DNA of 55,214 nt from Opitutales bacterium (GCA_007130045.1 SLTG01000056.1:1-55214); one strand, 5' to 3'. Counted from the first letter of the stretch, positions 24,195 to 30,957 are shown. The notes: generated by a model not told the origin, from the letters alone. Made by a program: numbers and translations.

Positions 24195-25961
24195 ATGAAA
24201 GATCTCGATATGCTTCGCGGCACCCTTGCCCGGATCGACGGGCGAGGCTACAAGGCTTACAAAGACATTCAGGGAGAGTACGGCTTTGAAGGCGGCTGTC
24301 TGTTTATCGACCATGTCCAGGGAGACCCGTTCGCCTCGCCTTCAAAGGTTCGGGTTCGCCTGGACGCCGGGGCGGCCGGTCTTCCGGTCGATCTGTACTC
24401 TTCACGTGTGCGGTGTACCGCGTTCGAGGATTTCCTTGCACGGCGCATGCGGGTTGCCTTGAAAAAAAAGGGCAGTCGCGATCGCGGTATCGGGAAGATC
24501 GGGATGATGCTGATCGATGCGGGCGCTCAGGAGGTTTTGCAGCGTACCGCCGTACGGATCACCGAAAATTGGGTGGAAGCTCGAATCGAAGTCGGATTGC
24601 CGGCGTCCGGGCGTCGAATTCTGGGCCGGCACGCCGCCGAAATGCTATGCGGTGCACTTCCGGAACTCGCAAGGGAGGCATTGGCGTGGTCCGAATCCGT
24701 CGAGGAGGAGGGACGCGCTTTTGTCCAGTGTGTCGAGAATCAGGAGTCGATCCGCAGGGAACTCCAGAATCAAGGACTGGTTGCATTCGTTGCCGATGGT
24801 TCCATGCTGCCGCGCGAGAGCGGGGTGAGCGACAGGCCCCTTTCCCCGGCGAAGGGAATTCCCTTTGACTCTCCGGACTCCCTTCGGGTTTCAATTGACC
24901 TTCCGAATCCGGATGCTCCATACACGGGAGAAAGCCGGACGATATGGGGCATGGGAATTCCTGAAGGCGTAACCTTGATCGTCGGGGGCGGTTATCATGG
25001 GAAGTCGACACTCCTGCGCGCCATCGAACGCGCCGTCTATCCTCATATTCCCGGGGACGGACGCGAATACGTGGTTTCACGGAATGACGCGGTTAAAATC
25101 CGGGCCGAAGACCGGCGCAGAATCGAGAAGGTCGATTTATCGTCATTGATCGACAACCTGCCCAACGGTCAGTCAACCGTTATGTTTTCGACCGACGAAG
25201 CGTCGGGCAGCACCAGTCAGGCTGCGGGCATCATCGAATCTCTCGAGGCCGGATCGCGGTTCCTGCTGGTCGATGAGGATACCGCGGCAACCAACCTGAT
25301 GATGCGTGATGCGCGAATGCAGAAGCTCGTAAGCCGTGAAAACGAACCAATCACGCCATTGCTGGACCGCATCCGGGAGCTTTACGAAGAACATGGAGTT
25401 TCCAGTATCCTCGTCATGGGCGGCTGTGGCGATTACTTTGACGTGGCGGATCGCGTGATCCTTATGCGCAATTACCGTCCCGAAGACGTCACTTCCAGTG
25501 CGAGGGAAATTGCTGCTAAGATTCCGACGTGGCGCGGGTTTGGCGCCGACACCCCGTTCAAACTCCCCTCCGGTCGCGTTCCCGTCGCTCGATCTATAAA
25601 TCCGCTAAAAGGACGAGGGAAGGTGAAGATCGAAGCAGACGGCATTGATGGAGTCCGGTTCGGCAACGAAACCATTGATTTGCGCGCTGTGGAACAGGTG
25701 GCCGACCCAAGCCAATTACGTGCTGTTGGACGCGCACTTCATCGGGCTGCGGGTGAGTTTATAAGAGAAAATGAATATTCTGCCCTGCCGGAAATCCTGG
25801 ATTGGCTCGAATCGGTAATGGAACGGCATACCGTGGATGGGCTCAGCGATTTTCGAGGAAAACATCCCGGCAATCTCTCATTGCCGAGGAGATACGAAAT
25901 CGCGGCGGCCTTCAATCGTCTGAGAACACTGCTAATCAGAGACACTGAACGGACCGAATAA
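24195..25961 (+). CDS. ABC-class ATPase of the COG3044 type
   Basis: A 588-aa cytoplasmic protein. An N-terminal domain (~1-240) of the family type ('GRGYKAYKDIQGEYGF', 'FIDHVQGDPFASPSKVRVR') precedes an ABC-like ATPase core. The Walker A is 'GGGYHGKSTLL' at about 264-274, the serine-rich signature region is 'STDEASGSTSQAAGI', the Walker B is 'RFLLVDEDTAATNLM', and an H-loop-like 'SSILVMGGCGDYFDVADRVI' follows. This matches the 'predicted ATPase of the ABC class' family (Pfam ABC_ATPase), whose trypanosome relative MRB1590 takes part in RNA editing. The bacterial function is unknown to me. It is a single-gene unit with its own promoter. Confidence 0.9.
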   Translation: MKDLDMLRGTLARIDGRGYKAYKDIQGEYGFEGGCLFIDHVQGDPFASPSKVRVRLDAGAAGLPVDLYSSRVRCTAFEDFLARRMRVALKKKGSRDRGIGKIGMMLIDAGAQEVLQRTAVRITENWVEARIEVGLPASGRRILGRHAAEMLCGALPELAREALAWSESVEEEGRAFVQCVENQESIRRELQNQGLVAFVADGSMLPRESGVSDRPLSPAKGIPFDSPDSLRVSIDLPNPDAPYTGESRTIWGMGIPEGVTLIVGGGYHGKSTLLRAIERAVYPHIPGDGREYVVSRNDAVKIRAEDRRRIEKVDLSSLIDNLPNGQSTVMFSTDEASGSTSQAAGIIESLEAGSRFLLVDEDTAATNLMMRDARMQKLVSRENEPITPLLDRIRELYEEHGVSSILVMGGCGDYFDVADRVILMRNYRPEDVTSSAREIAAKIPTWRGFGADTPFKLPSGRVPVARSINPLKGRGKVKIEADGIDGVRFGNETIDLRAVEQVADPSQLRAVGRALHRAAGEFIRENEYSALPEILDWLESVMERHTVDGLSDFRGKHPGNLSLPRRYEIAAAFNRLRTLLIRDTERTE

Positions 25962-26062: not shown

Positions 26063-27625
26063 TCAGACTTGACCGCCGCGCTCGGGGCTTGTTGGTTCCG
26101 ATGCTTCCTTGCCCCGTTCATCTCTCCCGCTTTCAACCCGGTACATTGTCAGGTTCGCGAGAAAACGGGCTTCCGCTTCGGGAAGGAACGGAAAGGTCAC
26201 CGTCCCGCTCGGGAGCGACAGCCTAACCGTTGCGACGCCCCGGCGGCGTTGAAACCAGCTCTGGCTGAGTTCCGCCCGCTGGGCGTTCCGCGAGGGAAAC
26301 ATCATGAGCCGGTGTCCGAACAATCCGCTCCTGAAATACGCGTACCGCCGGTCAACCGTCCATCCGACGGTCCGCCAATGTTGATACACAAGCAGCCAGA
26401 GAATCAGGAGCACCCCCAGGAACCCGGCCAGCAGGATTGCCTCGCCGATCGCCGCCGCGAACGTCCCGAACACCGCGGTAAACAGGAGCCCGAATCGAAG
26501 CATGAGAAAGCGCCGATAAAACGGGTGTACCCGGCGCAGCGATACGTCGGGGTTCACATCCGGCAGGAATTCTCCACTGAGCCGCCGCGCAGGATCCCGC
26601 GTCAGTCCCGGCACAAGAAAGGTGCGGGCGCCGGCATCGTTCTCCATTGCCGCAACACCGATCTGCCTGCATACAAGGTGCCTGCGCCGGATCATCCGTC
26701 CAACGGCCGTTTGAATCGACTCCACCGCCTGGAGCTTTGACAGCGACAGCACCTGTTCCTGGCGATTGAGCAATCCGCTTCGCTGGGTGAATCGCCCGTT
26801 TCCCCGGGTCAGTACAAAGCCGTGGAAACGAAGCCACGAAACGACCACCGAAATCGTAACCATCAGGACGACCAACCCAAACACCAACACGACCCCGGCC
26901 GCGAGTGCGGACCCGGTCGCCGTCACTATCCGCTCCCATAAATCGACCTCTCCTATGCGTTCGGCCAGGGACTGCTCGATCCGGTGGATAAAAGGCGACA
27001 ACGCCGCGGCCATGACGTACGCGTAATTGCTCGCCACACCGTGAAGGGTGAGGTTCCACGGAGTAACCCGGAAGAGCACCGAGGCTTCGCTTTCACCCGC
27101 AGAATCAGTTTCGGTTTCTCCTTTTCGCCCGTCGGATTCCCTTGAGGACTGCAGTTGGGTCCTAAGAAATTCCGCCGTCTCCCACCGGATTCCGGGAAGC
27201 TCGACTTCCGCCGCGGTGCTTCCGGGCGTGTCCACGCTGAACCGGACCAACCGGAACGGCCGCATATAAACCGGCTGTTGAAACGAAATATGCTGAATGC
27301 GCCCCGCCTGAAGCTTCAGTTCCTTGCGCTCGATAAGCCCCTTCTGGACACGGAGCATGTCTCCCTCCAGCCGGAATCTGAACCGCCGGTAGTAGATGAT
27401 GGAGATGGTTGTCCCAACGGCCAGCAACAGCCCGCCCGCAAGCGCGACCTCCATCACTCCGATCCGCTCGAACGCGGCCGCGCCCACGCCTGCCCCGAGA
27501 AGAAGGGGAATGTTCTCTCGGACGAACCGCACGATCCCGGCCGCCAGGATAAAAACAACCGACCACGGAGAAAGGCGGCGCCACCCGGAGGAACGTGACA
27601 ACGGGATTCCGCTATCGTCGCTCAT
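26063..27625 (-). CDS. YdbT-like membrane protein with bacterial PH domains
   Basis: A 520-aa membrane protein. ATG 27625 overlaps the end of the preceding YdbS-like gene by 14 bp. Hydrophobic pairs occur near residues 20-40 and 55-75, again near 215-260, and near 365-410. Each pair is followed by a beta-rich bPH2 domain: 'RFRFRLEGDMLRVQKGLIER', then 'GFVLTRGNGRFTQRSGLLNR', then 'YAYFRSGLFGHRLMMFPSRN'. Three repeats of this kind define the Bacillus YdbT type. The YdbS/YdbT pair is linked in Bacillus to resistance against some antimicrobial peptides. That role here is inference from pairing. Confidence 0.88.
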   Translation of the reverse strand: MSDDSGIPLSRSSGWRRLSPWSVVFILAAGIVRFVRENIPLLLGAGVGAAAFERIGVMEVALAGGLLLAVGTTISIIYYRRFRFRLEGDMLRVQKGLIERKELKLQAGRIQHISFQQPVYMRPFRLVRFSVDTPGSTAAEVELPGIRWETAEFLRTQLQSSRESDGRKGETETDSAGESEASVLFRVTPWNLTLHGVASNYAYVMAAALSPFIHRIEQSLAERIGEVDLWERIVTATGSALAAGVVLVFGLVVLMVTISVVVSWLRFHGFVLTRGNGRFTQRSGLLNRQEQVLSLSKLQAVESIQTAVGRMIRRRHLVCRQIGVAAMENDAGARTFLVPGLTRDPARRLSGEFLPDVNPDVSLRRVHPFYRRFLMLRFGLLFTAVFGTFAAAIGEAILLAGFLGVLLILWLLVYQHWRTVGWTVDRRYAYFRSGLFGHRLMMFPSRNAQRAELSQSWFQRRRGVATVRLSLPSGTVTFPFLPEAEARFLANLTMYRVESGRDERGKEASEPTSPERGGQV

Positions 27626-28196
27626 CCGAATCTCCCTGCGTTTCCTCGCCGTCCCGACCGTGAATACGCGAGAGCAGGAACTGCCGCACGAGTTCGGCAC
27701 GGTCGCGCTCCAACCCGCCGATCACAAGGTCCGCCCCCAGACCACCGGCCGTGTAACACGTCAGGCGAACGAGATTGAAATGCCTTTCGAGCGGGCCCGA
27801 CGCCGTTTCGACATGCTGAACCCGGGAAAGCGGAAGGATCACGGTTCTGCGGACGATGATTCCCCTCGCGTAAATCAGATCGTGTTCGCGCAAACCGTAC
27901 GCGCGTTTCCGGGCATCGAGCCAGGACAATGACGCAAACCCCGCTCCCAGAAACAGCGCGGCAAACGGCGCGACGGTTGCCGGCCCCTGAAACATCTCCC
28001 CGACGATCAACGCAAGCGTCGATCCCAGCGCTATAATCGACCAGGCGATTCCCTGGCTCACCACGCTGTAGATCGCAAACCGCGGCGAAACCGGCAGGAG
28101 CGGGACATCTTCGTACGCCGGAAGCTCTTCCGGCGCGATCATGTTGTTGTGAAATCCGTCGTCCATCACATTTTCGATCCAGGTTCTCAATCCCAC
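27612..28196 (-). CDS. YdbS-like bacterial PH domain membrane protein
   Basis: A 194-aa partner of the YdbT-like protein. Two membrane helices (~42-65 and 72-92) are followed by one bPH2 domain. Its family features are 'LREHDLIYARGIIVRRTVIL', 'PLSRVQHVETASGPLERHF', 'VRLTCYTAGG' and the terminal 'LERDRAELVRQFLLSRI'. The frame opens with GTG at 28196; ATG at 28166 (MDDGFHNN) is an alternative, and neither has a clear ribosome-binding site. The short overlap with the next gene implies translational coupling. Confidence 0.85.
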   Translation of the reverse strand: MGLRTWIENVMDDGFHNNMIAPEELPAYEDVPLLPVSPRFAIYSVVSQGIAWSIIALGSTLALIVGEMFQGPATVAPFAALFLGAGFASLSWLDARKRAYGLREHDLIYARGIIVRRTVILPLSRVQHVETASGPLERHFNLVRLTCYTAGGLGADLVIGGLERDRAELVRQFLLSRIHGRDGEETQGDSDERR

Positions 28197-28455: not shown

Positions 28456-29742
28456 ATGGGTTTCAGAATCTCATTTGGCGGGCGGGGGAGGCGGCGAACT
28501 CCGTCGGGGCCGATTTCAAAATCGGCCCGGCGCGGACTTGGACGCGGGGGACGTGTCGGGCTTTTTTTGTTTTTCGGGATATTCGCCGCGATGGGGAGCG
28601 TCTTTTTTTATTTCTTCTTCATCTCCTCGTTCCTGAAAGTTCGCGAAGCGGCGGCTTGGGAGGAAGTCACGTGCACGATCATCTCAAGTGATGTCGGCAG
28701 CTATCGGGGCAGTGAAGGCGGAACGGTTTACGCGCCGGAGATCGAGTACGAATATGAATACGCGGGCCGGACCTGGCGCTCGGATAAAGTCCGCTTTTTC
28801 GGGATGCGTTCGAGCAACCGGACTTCCCACGCGAACTTCGTCGCCCGCTTTCCCGAGGGAAGCGCGGCGGTTTGTTACGTAAACCCGGCAAATCCGTCCG
28901 AGGCGGTGCTTGATCGCGGCTATTCGGCCAGCATGTTTTTCGGACTCATCCCGCTCGTATTCGTCGGCGTCGGCGTCGGCGGAATGACCTATGCCGTGCG
29001 TGGAATGCGGAACGCCAAAGGAAAGGACTTTTCGCCGGTATTCAAAGGGAGCGAACAGGATCGCGGCAGCATGGGCCGGCTGACCGGCGAGGCGGTGCCG
29101 GGGTTGCCGGCGGTGGATGAAGCGGATTTCCAGGAATCCCGCCTGAAGCCATCGCAAACCGCTCTGGCGACTTGCCTGGCAATGGTCGGCGTCTCCATCT
29201 TCTGGAACGGCCTGGTTTCGGTCTTTGTCACGATCGCCGCTCGGAGTTGGATGGACGGCGATCCGGAATATTTCCTGACGTTCTTCATCATTCCGTTTGT
29301 TCTCGTGGGGATCGGTCTGATCGGGGGTGTTTTCTATTTTCTCCTCGCCCTGTTCAATCCCCGTCCGGACGTCACCGTTAGCGCGCGCGCGATTCAGTTG
29401 GGAGAGAAGTTGCGCATCAAGTGGATAGTCAACGGACGCACGGGGCGAATGGAATGGGTCCGGATCAGTCTCGAAGGAACGGAGTCGGCCACCTACCGCG
29501 TGGGGACAAGATCAACCACCGACACATCAAACTTCCTGTCCGAAACCCTGTTCGAATCTTCCGACCGGTTTGCCATGGCGGAAGGAAATCTCGAAGTGAC
29601 GATCCCCGCCGATACCATGCACTCGTTCGAAGCCCACAACAACAAGATCACCTGGGAACTTCGTTTTCACGGAAAGATCTCCACCTGGCCGGATGTAAAG
29701 CAGTCGTATCCCATCACGGTCCTGCCCCGGAAAATCGCGTAG
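28456..29742 (+). CDS. Membrane protein with DUF3592 and a C-terminal arrestin-like domain
   Basis: A 428-aa protein from ATG 28456, preceded by GGAAAA; an ATG at 28429 is also in frame. A basic N-terminus (GGRGRRR...SARRG) is followed by a helix (~36-60). A DUF3592-type extracytoplasmic domain comes next ('EVTCTIISSDVGSY', 'YEYEYAGRTWRSDKVRFFG', 'VCYVNPANPSEAVLDRG'), then helices at ~155-180, 235-262 and 270-298. The C-terminal ~125 residues are beta-rich and arrestin-like, with 'GEKLRIKWIV', 'RISLEGTESATYRVG' and 'NNKITWELRFHGKISTWPDV'. A 10-bp palindrome lies inside the first 25 codons. It heads a three-gene run; the function is unknown. Confidence 0.82.
   Translation: MGFRISFGGRGRRRTPSGPISKSARRGLGRGGRVGLFLFFGIFAAMGSVFFYFFFISSFLKVREAAAWEEVTCTIISSDVGSYRGSEGGTVYAPEIEYEYEYAGRTWRSDKVRFFGMRSSNRTSHANFVARFPEGSAAVCYVNPANPSEAVLDRGYSASMFFGLIPLVFVGVGVGGMTYAVRGMRNAKGKDFSPVFKGSEQDRGSMGRLTGEAVPGLPAVDEADFQESRLKPSQTALATCLAMVGVSIFWNGLVSVFVTIAARSWMDGDPEYFLTFFIIPFVLVGIGLIGGVFYFLLALFNPRPDVTVSARAIQLGEKLRIKWIVNGRTGRMEWVRISLEGTESATYRVGTRSTTDTSNFLSETLFESSDRFAMAEGNLEVTIPADTMHSFEAHNNKITWELRFHGKISTWPDVKQSYPITVLPRKIA
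28507..28528. repeat. Perfect 10-bp inverted repeat near the start of the DUF3592 gene
   Basis: GGGCCGATTT (28507-28516) and AAATCGGCCC (28519-28528) flank a CA dinucleotide. It lies about 50 nt inside the predicted coding start. It could be an mRNA hairpin controlling translation, an operator, or a hint that the true start is further downstream. Confidence 0.6.
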
Positions 29743-29780
29743 CCTGAATCAGTCACCGGATCGTGCGAAAATGAAGAGCA

Positions 29781-30221
29781 ATGGACGAACTGAAGATAGA
29801 GCTTGCGAGTGACCACAGGGAGTTTTTTCCGGGCGAGGAAGTGGCCGGAACGGTTTCCTGGCGGCTCGGAAAAGCGCCCCGCGAAGTCCATCTGCACCTG
29901 CTCTGGTATACTCAGGGGAAGGGGGACCGCGACGCACAACTCATTCGTACGGTTGAGTTCCAGCATCCCGCGAGCGAAGACAGCCGTCCGTTCCATATTT
30001 ATCTTCCGCGCGGACCTTACAGCTTCTCGGGTCGGCTGGTTTCGATTATATGGGGATTCGAGCTCATCGCGAATTCCTCGAAAGAAGCAGCGAACGAAGA
30101 AATCGTCCTCTCTCCCACAGGTAAAGAGGTCCGTCCGCCGAATGCCGACGAGCAGGAGGCCGGGCACCCGTTGGTTCAAAAGATCAAGAGCTGGTTCGGC
30201 GGGGGAAATGCGCGCGCGTGA
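29781..30221 (+). CDS. Small arrestin-like beta-sandwich protein
   Basis: 146 aa, no signal peptide or membrane helix, so probably cytoplasmic. The pattern 'ASDHREFFPGEEVAGTVSW' (polar beta strand, then 'G-E-x-V-x-G-x-V-x-W') followed by 'REVHLHLLWYTQGKGDRD' and 'FHIYLPRGPYSFSGRLVSI' is that of arrestin/Spo0M-like or Vps26-like sandwiches. It resembles the C-terminal domain of the preceding membrane protein, which suggests the two are partners or paralogous folds. It starts 38 bp after that gene and overlaps the following ATPase gene by 14 bp. Function unknown. Confidence 0.75.
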   Translation: MDELKIELASDHREFFPGEEVAGTVSWRLGKAPREVHLHLLWYTQGKGDRDAQLIRTVEFQHPASEDSRPFHIYLPRGPYSFSGRLVSIIWGFELIANSSKEAANEEIVLSPTGKEVRPPNADEQEAGHPLVQKIKSWFGGGNARA

Positions 30222-30783
30222 CAATCCGTTCACTGTTCAGCGAATCCACTCGATTCCCTACGTGTTCCCGGAGGGCGATTGGGGCTTGTTTTTGCAGCGC
30301 CTGGAAAAACTGGATTACCGCGGTGCGATCGTCGGGCCGAAGGGCAGGGGGAAAAGCACGCTGTTGCGCGAGCTCGGCGCCCGGCTCCGCGAGCGCAACC
30401 TCCAGCCCCGCTTCGTACGGCGCGATGAGGACGAGCCGTCGTTTCCGAAAGCATTCTGGAAACAGTTTCCGGCTACGCTGCAACCCGGTGACGTTATCTT
30501 GTTCGACGGCGCGGAGCAACTTACCTGCTGGGCGTGGCGGCGATTCGTGAGAATGAGCCGCGCCGCCCGAGGGCTCGTCATTACCTCCCACCGTCGCGGA
30601 ATGCTCCCGCTTCTGTACGTTTGCGATACGACTCCCGAACTTCTCAAGGAAGTCATCGCAAGAATCGCCCCGGACGAAGCCCCACGGCTGCCTCTTTCCG
30701 CCGAAGAACTGTATTCGCGCCATAAGGGCGACCTTCGGGAGGCGCTTCGCGAACTCTACGACCGCTACGCGCGGAAGGAGTGA
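30208..30783 (+). CDS. Small P-loop ATPase of the arrestin-like cassette
   Basis: 191 aa. The ATG at 30208 lies inside the end of the upstream gene (14-bp overlap) with GGGGGA in front. The Walker A is 'GPKGRGKSTLL' (43-53). The Walker B-like strand is 'VILFDGAEQL', with D instead of the usual second acidic residue position. A sensor-like 'GLVITSHRRGMLPLLYV' and the C-terminal 'HKGDLREALRELYDRYA' complete a conserved-looking protein. It is not a full AAA+ or ABC ATPase and resembles small nucleotide-dependent switches or tethering factors. Its partner is presumably the arrestin-like pair. Function unknown. Confidence 0.8.
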   Translation: MRARDNPFTVQRIHSIPYVFPEGDWGLFLQRLEKLDYRGAIVGPKGRGKSTLLRELGARLRERNLQPRFVRRDEDEPSFPKAFWKQFPATLQPGDVILFDGAEQLTCWAWRRFVRMSRAARGLVITSHRRGMLPLLYVCDTTPELLKEVIARIAPDEAPRLPLSAEELYSRHKGDLREALRELYDRYARKE

Positions 30784-30815
30784 GCAGCAAAGGGCGGCGC
30801 GGGCAGCGTTCCCTG

Positions 30816-30864
30816 TCCTTACGGACTGGCCTGCATTCCGCATCCTTGCGGACAGGCCTGCATT
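30816..30864 (+). repeat. Interspersed 22-bp repeat, locus 1 (two units)
   Basis: Units at 30816-30837 and 30843-30864 share the form TCCTTxCGGACxGGCCTGCATT with a 27-bp period; within the first, GTCC-TTAC-GGAC can fold back. A palindromic CGGCCCGCAGGCCG lies just after (30871-30884). The locus is 33 bp downstream of the ATPase stop and shares its sequence with 36659-36729 and 42145-42160. Confidence 0.8.
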
Positions 30865-30957
30865 GTTCTTCGGCCCGCAGGCCGCTTCCGTATGCAGCGG
30901 GGATCCCGAGAATTGGAATTGCAAGGCAAAACAGTTCCCGTCAAGGTCGCCGGCAAC

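Follow-up and report, generated by a model that had tools for sequence, protein, structure and literature searches.

A three-gene cassette at positions 28456-30783 of the window (the whole 55,214-nucleotide stretch of Opitutales DNA that was analysed) encodes a four-helix membrane protein with a predicted arrestin-like C-terminal domain, a predicted soluble arrestin-like protein, and a putative small P-loop NTPase. The reading preferred here, in which about even confidence is placed, is that this operon specifies a complex, anchored in the membrane and regulated by an NTPase of its own, in which an arrestin fold is split between two proteins; the direct observations behind it are the genes and their operon-like spacing, their co-inheritance, the predicted folds, an NTP-binding motif, and a natural fusion of genes 1 and 2. 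In eukaryotes, proteins of the arrestin fold act as organisers of receptor signalling and of the sorting of membrane proteins.

Organization of the Locus

All three open reading frames lie on the + strand (Table 1), with a 38-bp gap between genes 1 and 2 and a short overlap between genes 2 and 3 that likely couples their translation; most Verrucomicrobiota homologues instead have 4-bp ATGA overlaps at one or both junctions. The sequence-only reading had described three overlapping or closely spaced genes on one strand, the ATPase gene with a 14-bp overlap, and its coordinates agree with those found here. No sigma-70 promoter-like site was found for the cassette, an absence that is uninformative. 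Just past the cassette, at 30810-30875, lies a short imperfect repeat around GGCCTGCATT, which overlaps a terminator-like hairpin at 30847-30862 (a consensus match only). Immediately upstream of the cassette are two divergent bPH_2 genes, a membrane-protein pair with the bacterial PH domain (26063-28196, - strand) that is not conserved beside the cassette elsewhere; further out, positions 24195-25961 encode an ATPase of the ABC class (PF09818 type; ABC_N and MRB1590_C domains, E 2e-119), from a family that has an RNA-binding eukaryotic relative. Downstream is an unrelated 275-aa ORF, followed by a gene for an RND transporter on the opposite strand.

Table 1. Features of the three-gene cassette, with positions counted from the first nucleotide of the window; domains, helices and functions are predicted.
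Feature	Position	Strand	Description
Gene 1	28456..29742	+	428 aa; four-helix membrane protein, DUF3592 and C-terminal arrestin-like domain
TM helix 1	28543..28650	+	Residues 30-65 in the AF2 model; hydropathy segment 38-54 over 44 homologues
DUF3592 domain	28666..28923	+	Residues 71-156; Pfam; predicted extracytoplasmic by the positive-inside rule
TM helix 2	28951..29019	+	Residues 166-188; followed by a positively charged, low-confidence cytoplasmic linker, 189-235
TM helices 3 and 4	29161..29352	+	Residues 236-266 and 272-299
C-terminal arrestin-like beta-sandwich	29356..29739	+	Residues 301-428; best fit Vps26 C-lobe; predicted cytoplasmic
Gene 2	29781..30221	+	146 aa; soluble arrestin-like domain
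Overlap of gene-3 start and gene-2 stop	30208..30221	+	Exactly 14 bp; ATG at 30208
Gene 3	30208..30783	+	191 aa; small P-loop NTPase
N-terminal motif A-x-x-N-P-F	30214..30231	+	Residues 3-8; A3, N6, P7 and F8 invariant in 59/59; family-defining
Walker A GPKGRGKS	30334..30357	+	Residues 43-50; G46, G48 and K49 in 59/59; GxxGxGK[ST] conserved
Variant Walker B VILFDGAE	30493..30516	+	Residues 96-103; G replaces E after Asp
C-terminal G-N/D-x-R motif	30727..30738	+	Residues 174-177; G174 57/59, R177 57/59; sensor-2-like by position

Gene 1, a DUF3592 Membrane Protein

The product of gene 1 matches the Pfam domain DUF3592 (PF12158) at E 9.4e-18 and 65.1 bits, against a curated cutoff of 25.3; the domain is matched by all 44 gene-1 homologues in Pfam, and a similar MxFR N-terminus stands at the start of the homologues. 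Gene 1 differs from the Pfam definition of DUF3592, which is that of a domain of unknown function, in adding an arrestin-like C-terminal domain and neighbouring genes. The AF2 model, built with 44 sequences, has a pLDDT of 87.9 and a pTM of 0.55, with pLDDT >90 over residues 303-423. Foldseek matches the C-terminal domain to ARRDC3 (E 2.9e-7) and Spo0M (E 1.7e-6), and VIA-align superposes it on residues 160-297 of mouse VPS26B with Z 13.4 and an rmsd of 2.2 over 127 aligned residues. Weak Pfam traces of Arrestin_N (6/44) and Arrestin_C (2/44) are found among the homologues, with a best E of 0.002 and none for the window's own protein.

Over the 44 homologues the net charge is +2.5 at the N-terminus and +4.1 in the linker between TM2 and TM3; both loops, that of DUF3592 (+0.1) and that between TM3 and TM4 (-0.2), are neutral. 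Under the positive-inside rule this charge pattern would place DUF3592 outside the cytoplasm, and the linker and arrestin-like domain inside. The alignment to Vps26 begins in the linker before TM3 and groups a strand of the linker with the C-terminal domain, which agrees with both being on the same side of the membrane. The homologues differ in how many copies of the external domain they carry, and the arrestin part is constant: many, at ~570 aa, have two tandem DUF3592 units (L027, L031, L034, L042, L044 and others), and at some loci extra DUF3592 genes lie directly upstream.

The TM1-DUF3592-TM2 part of the model (28543-29019) matches the BK-channel beta4 subunit KCNMB4 (6v22_E, Foldseek E 1.7e-4), and the Pfam family CaKB gives a weak match in 3/44 homologues (best E 0.0056); a TM-ectodomain-TM layout may be common to DUF3592 and KCNMB proteins. 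These matches favour a rather improbable alternative, in which the trio serves a membrane transporter or channel, as an accessory or in quality control: DUF3592 would be an extracytoplasmic modulator in the manner of BK-channel beta subunits, the arrestin parts would select membrane proteins as clients for turnover, and the NTPase would extract these clients or hand them over. Arrestins act in eukaryotic transporter endocytosis; however, the CaKB/KCNMB similarity is marginal and could reflect common topology, and no transporter, channel or protease gene recurs beside the cassette.

Gene 2 and the Predicted Arrestin Lobes

No Pfam or NCBIfam family matches the gene-2 protein of the window. Its AF2 model (17 sequences) has a pLDDT of 88.4, with a low-confidence C-terminal tail from about residue 120; the top Foldseek matches are the ARRDC3 N-lobe, Spo0M and Vps26 (E 4.5e-7 to 1e-5), and ranks 1-37 are nearly all arrestin-clan. 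By VIA-align the best fit is to the Vps26 N-lobe, with Z 13.1 and an rmsd of 2.5 over 113 residues. The only sequence-level arrestin matches of gene 2 are weak ones to N-lobes, namely Pfam Arrestin_N, found in 14/56 gene-2 homologues (best E 4e-4), and TXNIP (E 0.017). An arrestin-type beta-sandwich is predicted both in gene 2 and in the C-terminus of gene 1. The sequence-only reading had proposed arrestin-like folds here, and a C-terminal beta-sandwich in gene 1 that resembles gene 2; structure prediction by AF2 bears out the former with arrestin-clan matches for both proteins, and the resemblance between the two, clear by predicted fold, is weak at the sequence level (profile-profile E 4e-4 to 2e-3, with a probability of 14-35%).

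Set against Vps26, gene 2 falls on the N-lobe throughout and the gene-1 C-terminal domain on the C-lobe. When compared with beta-arrestins both take the C-lobe (gene 2 with Z 11-11.8), and for the gene-1 domain the ARRDC3 N-lobe (Z 12.5) comes close to a tie with the Vps26 C-lobe; because the beta-arrestin C-lobe and ARRDC3 N-lobe fits compete, the predicted folds are only suggestive of an N-lobe-like gene 2 and a C-lobe-like domain in gene 1.

Genes 1 and 2 are naturally fused in some genomes. In G169, a single-contig genome, they form one 556-codon ORF, and in G118 and G290, of the same genus, both profile matches lie in one 572-codon open frame; the fused genes (L029 5793-7463, G118:C17 and G290:C5) occur in this one genus only. 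A sequencing error is unlikely, as the fusion is present in three assemblies. Within the fusion the C-lobe-like part precedes the N-lobe-like part, which is the reverse of the order in eukaryotic arrestins.

Gene 3, a Small P-loop NTPase

By its motifs gene 3 is a predicted P-loop NTPase, with the Walker A motif and the Walker B Asp conserved in 59 sequences; the sequence-only reading had named it a small ATPase, and the Walker A and the Walker-B-like VILFDG that such a protein calls for are both present (Table 1). The NPF motif at the N-terminus is also invariant in 18 sequences that were found without it in the search pattern. Within the Walker B motif, D100 is kept in 59/59 sequences; the following position is G101 in 56/59 and acidic in 0/59, and an acidic residue is found at 102 or 103 in 54/59. 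Since the Walker B lacks the usual adjacent Glu, hydrolysis by gene 3 is uncertain.

The gene-3 protein of the window gives only sub-cutoff P-loop matches in Pfam, and no Pfam AAA model reaches its cutoff. The full-length gene-3 profile aligns to RFC2/RFC3 over residues 41-186 (E 2e-5), and the late GNxR resembles AAA+ sensor 2; an AAA+ class based on RFC similarity does not hold up, as the RFC2 match falls to E 1.5 when the Walker A region is left out. One trait of STAND/NACHT proteins is a small residue immediately following the Walker B Asp; gene 3 has this trait in G101, which is never replaced by D or E. The nSTAND_NTPase5 model scores 20.3 bits for gene 3 (P0003) against a cutoff of 34, a sub-threshold match that carries no weight because the model gives sub-cutoff matches in every one of the 19 genomes and 14 controls; a STAND class on this basis was rejected. 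In one homologue (G083, L023 6246) the ATPase gene has no ATG, GTG or TTG at the expected start, and a possible non-canonical start is a CTG that overlaps the upstream TGA (CTGA) and agrees with the alignment of the family.

Conservation of the Trio in Verrucomicrobiota

An even sample of 388 Verrucomicrobiota genomes was searched by profile for each family. The ATPase profile is found in 16 of the 388 genomes and the gene-2 profile in 27, and all 16 ATPase genomes fall among these 27; the full-length gene-1 profile is found in ~32 genomes, among 98 with any DUF3592 match at that threshold. Gene 1 is immediately upstream of gene 2, or fused to it, in 26/27 genomes, the exception being an ORF of contig G378:C526. 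The order gene 1-2-3 is kept at 16 of the 18 ATPase-bearing loci examined; at the two deviating loci the ATPase gene is on the same strand, 1 kb further on in G202 and ~5-6 kb away in G028. Genes 1 and 2 occur without a detected ATPase gene in 11/27 genomes, several of which are incomplete MAGs, and the fused versions in G118 and G290 are among them. As these 11 genomes keep genes 1 and 2, the arrestin pair is probably the core of the system, and the NTPase an added control that is dispensable in some Verrucomicrobiota.

The same absence of the ATPase is consistent with an alternative considered unlikely, in which the products of genes 1 and 2 make up a scaffold in the membrane that is static, or an anchor for the cell envelope or cytoskeleton, and the NTPase acts as a chaperone in its assembly and is lost when unneeded, with no signalling switch. 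The missing canonical position of the catalytic Glu in the NTPase also favours a static scaffold, as does the proposed placement of Spo0M, an established bacterial arrestin-clan family (PMC2515105), near the divisome; Spo0M co-immunoprecipitates with FtsZ in B. subtilis, and divisome contacts are reported (PMC5325327). However, the constant presence of the arrestin gene with the ATPase gene in the Verrucomicrobiota sample, together with the tight gene coupling, suggests more than occasional help from the NTPase, and no divisome genes recur in the flanks of the cassette.

Distribution Beyond the Phylum

The gene trio that the sequence-only reading had proposed as a module recurs widely: in the survey of gene neighbourhoods, homologues lie together in at least seven phyla. 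Among 179 Planctomycetota sampled independently, 15 genomes have the ATPase gene, 12 with the complete ordered trio and 3 with a lone ATPase gene; in G414 (Thalassoglobus, with a lone ATPase gene), G415, G416 and G420, genes 1 and 2 are found elsewhere in the same genome. Named records were collected from genome contigs with a degenerate DNA pattern containing the ATGA start and the NPF motif, which gave 93 matches from which chance ones were removed by profile; a single-protein pattern search of genome contigs with P0003 found nothing. Since the DNA pattern demands an A right behind the start ATG, the configuration of the frequent 4-bp overlap, no overlap statistics are given for the named records. 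This search adds 44 further independent, profile-filtered ATPase loci, and with them Desulfobacterota (e.g. Desulfatibacillum alkenivorans), Holophagales (Acidobacteriota), Omnitrophota, Sumerlaeota and Hydrogenedentota. Gene 2 is within 200 nt upstream of the ATPase gene at 37 of the 44 loci, and both genes 1 and 2 are in the fetched stretch at 36; four of the seven loci without an adjacent gene 2 end <0.6 kb upstream, at the edge of the fetched stretch. At L105 the trio is reordered as gene 2 - gene 3 - gene 1, and for L058 and L108 neither gene 1 nor gene 2 was found in the genome.

Clustering of the flanking ORFs gave no fourth conserved gene beyond close relatives; with no flanking family common outside these relatives, the adjacency is a property of the trio and does not reflect general synteny. 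The arrangement is not due to chance, because the same three families recur adjacent to each other in divergent genomes that do not share their other flanking genes. Distance matrices of the three families correlate with r 0.65-0.72, compared to a permutation maximum of 0.23, a correlation that partly reflects shared ancestry. In a concatenated-protein tree the trio of the window groups with a Planctomycetaceae record (support 0.98) and not with its own family, a placement that suggests that the three genes were transferred together from phylum to phylum.

The patchy occurrence and transfer across phyla, along with the sub-threshold STAND/NACHT-like matches of the P-loop NTPase, would also suit an anti-phage or conflict system made of a membrane effector and an NTPase sensor, to which very little probability is given. 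PADLOC yields no convincing match (the best is mad8, E 4.8e-5, over the P-loop protein), the flanks examined contain housekeeping-type genes and no recurring defence gene family, and no toxic effector domain is recognised; P0003 and P0001 are unmatched in the plasmid collection, and P0001 is unmatched in viral contigs. With the flanks, PADLOC, and the plasmid and viral-contig searches all against it, defence was rejected as the main reading.

Comparison with Known Arrestin-Fold Systems

Gene 2 matches the crystal structure of Spo0M from B. subtilis (5cl2; Foldseek E 7.6e-7, VIA Z 12.0), and the gene-1 C-terminal domain also matches Spo0M by fold; however, the matched Spo0M chain is one polypeptide of ~245 residues, whereas the arrestin parts of the cassette are split between a membrane and a soluble protein and are accompanied by an NTPase gene. 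Spo0M was found by fold only; its family was not listed in Pfam/NCBIfam scans of the trio nor in Pfam scans of the homologues. The best structural match for both proteins is Vps26 (retromer)/VPS26C (retriever), with gene 2 as N-lobe and the gene-1 domain as C-lobe. Vps26 differs in being eukaryotic and soluble with its lobes in one chain in the order N-C, while the bacterial fusion runs C-like then N-like, and identity is 5-16%. The top Foldseek match for both proteins is the ARRDC3 structure 4r7x, a likeness to the alpha-arrestins (ARRDC3, TXNIP); these, however, are eukaryotic ubiquitin-ligase adaptors that are soluble and have no NTPase partner. Arrestin proper has two lobes in one polypeptide, whereas here the domains are divided between genes 1 and 2 and are joined only in G169, G118 and G290.

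Proposed Mechanism and Significance

As a membrane-anchored split arrestin-fold complex, the system would be built on gene 1, which would cross the inner membrane four times with DUF3592 outside and the C-terminal arrestin-like domain inside; the soluble, cytoplasmic gene-2 protein would dock on this domain to give a two-lobed, arrestin/Vps26-like platform at the membrane. The gene-3 P-loop NTPase would bind the platform, its nucleotide state controlling the recruitment or release of a cytoplasmic client, and the trigger would be something sensed by DUF3592. Co-inheritance, gene coupling and the natural fusion argue for the pairing of the two lobes, and co-inheritance is suggestive of regulation by the NTPase. 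The trafficking or signalling role, with a nucleotide switch, that the sequence-only reading had suggested is likewise an inference. A fuller version of this proposal is advanced tentatively and is thought somewhat doubtful: an undescribed bacterial arrestin machine in which a transmembrane receptor carries a C-lobe-like half that is completed by a separate N-lobe-like half, gated by an NTPase and moving between phyla as a unit.

The sequence-only reading had considered such a module not described, which is consistent with the open-access PMC literature, where no paper describing the trio was found; subscription journals are mostly outside this scope, and a prior description is possible. No paper in the same literature names DUF3592 together with arrestin, and the sole DUF3592 paper concerns a beta-lactamase isolate. 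Spo0M is the only prokaryotic arrestin-clan family in the literature searched, and its mechanism is poorly known. As the trio is kept across at least seven phyla and no description of it was found, it is probably a complex for signalling or scaffolding at the membrane that has yet to be characterised. An operon that pairs membrane-embedded and soluble arrestin domains with an NTPase would offer a tractable prokaryotic test of how arrestin lobes work at membranes, and the cassette gives context to DUF3592, a widespread domain of unknown function.
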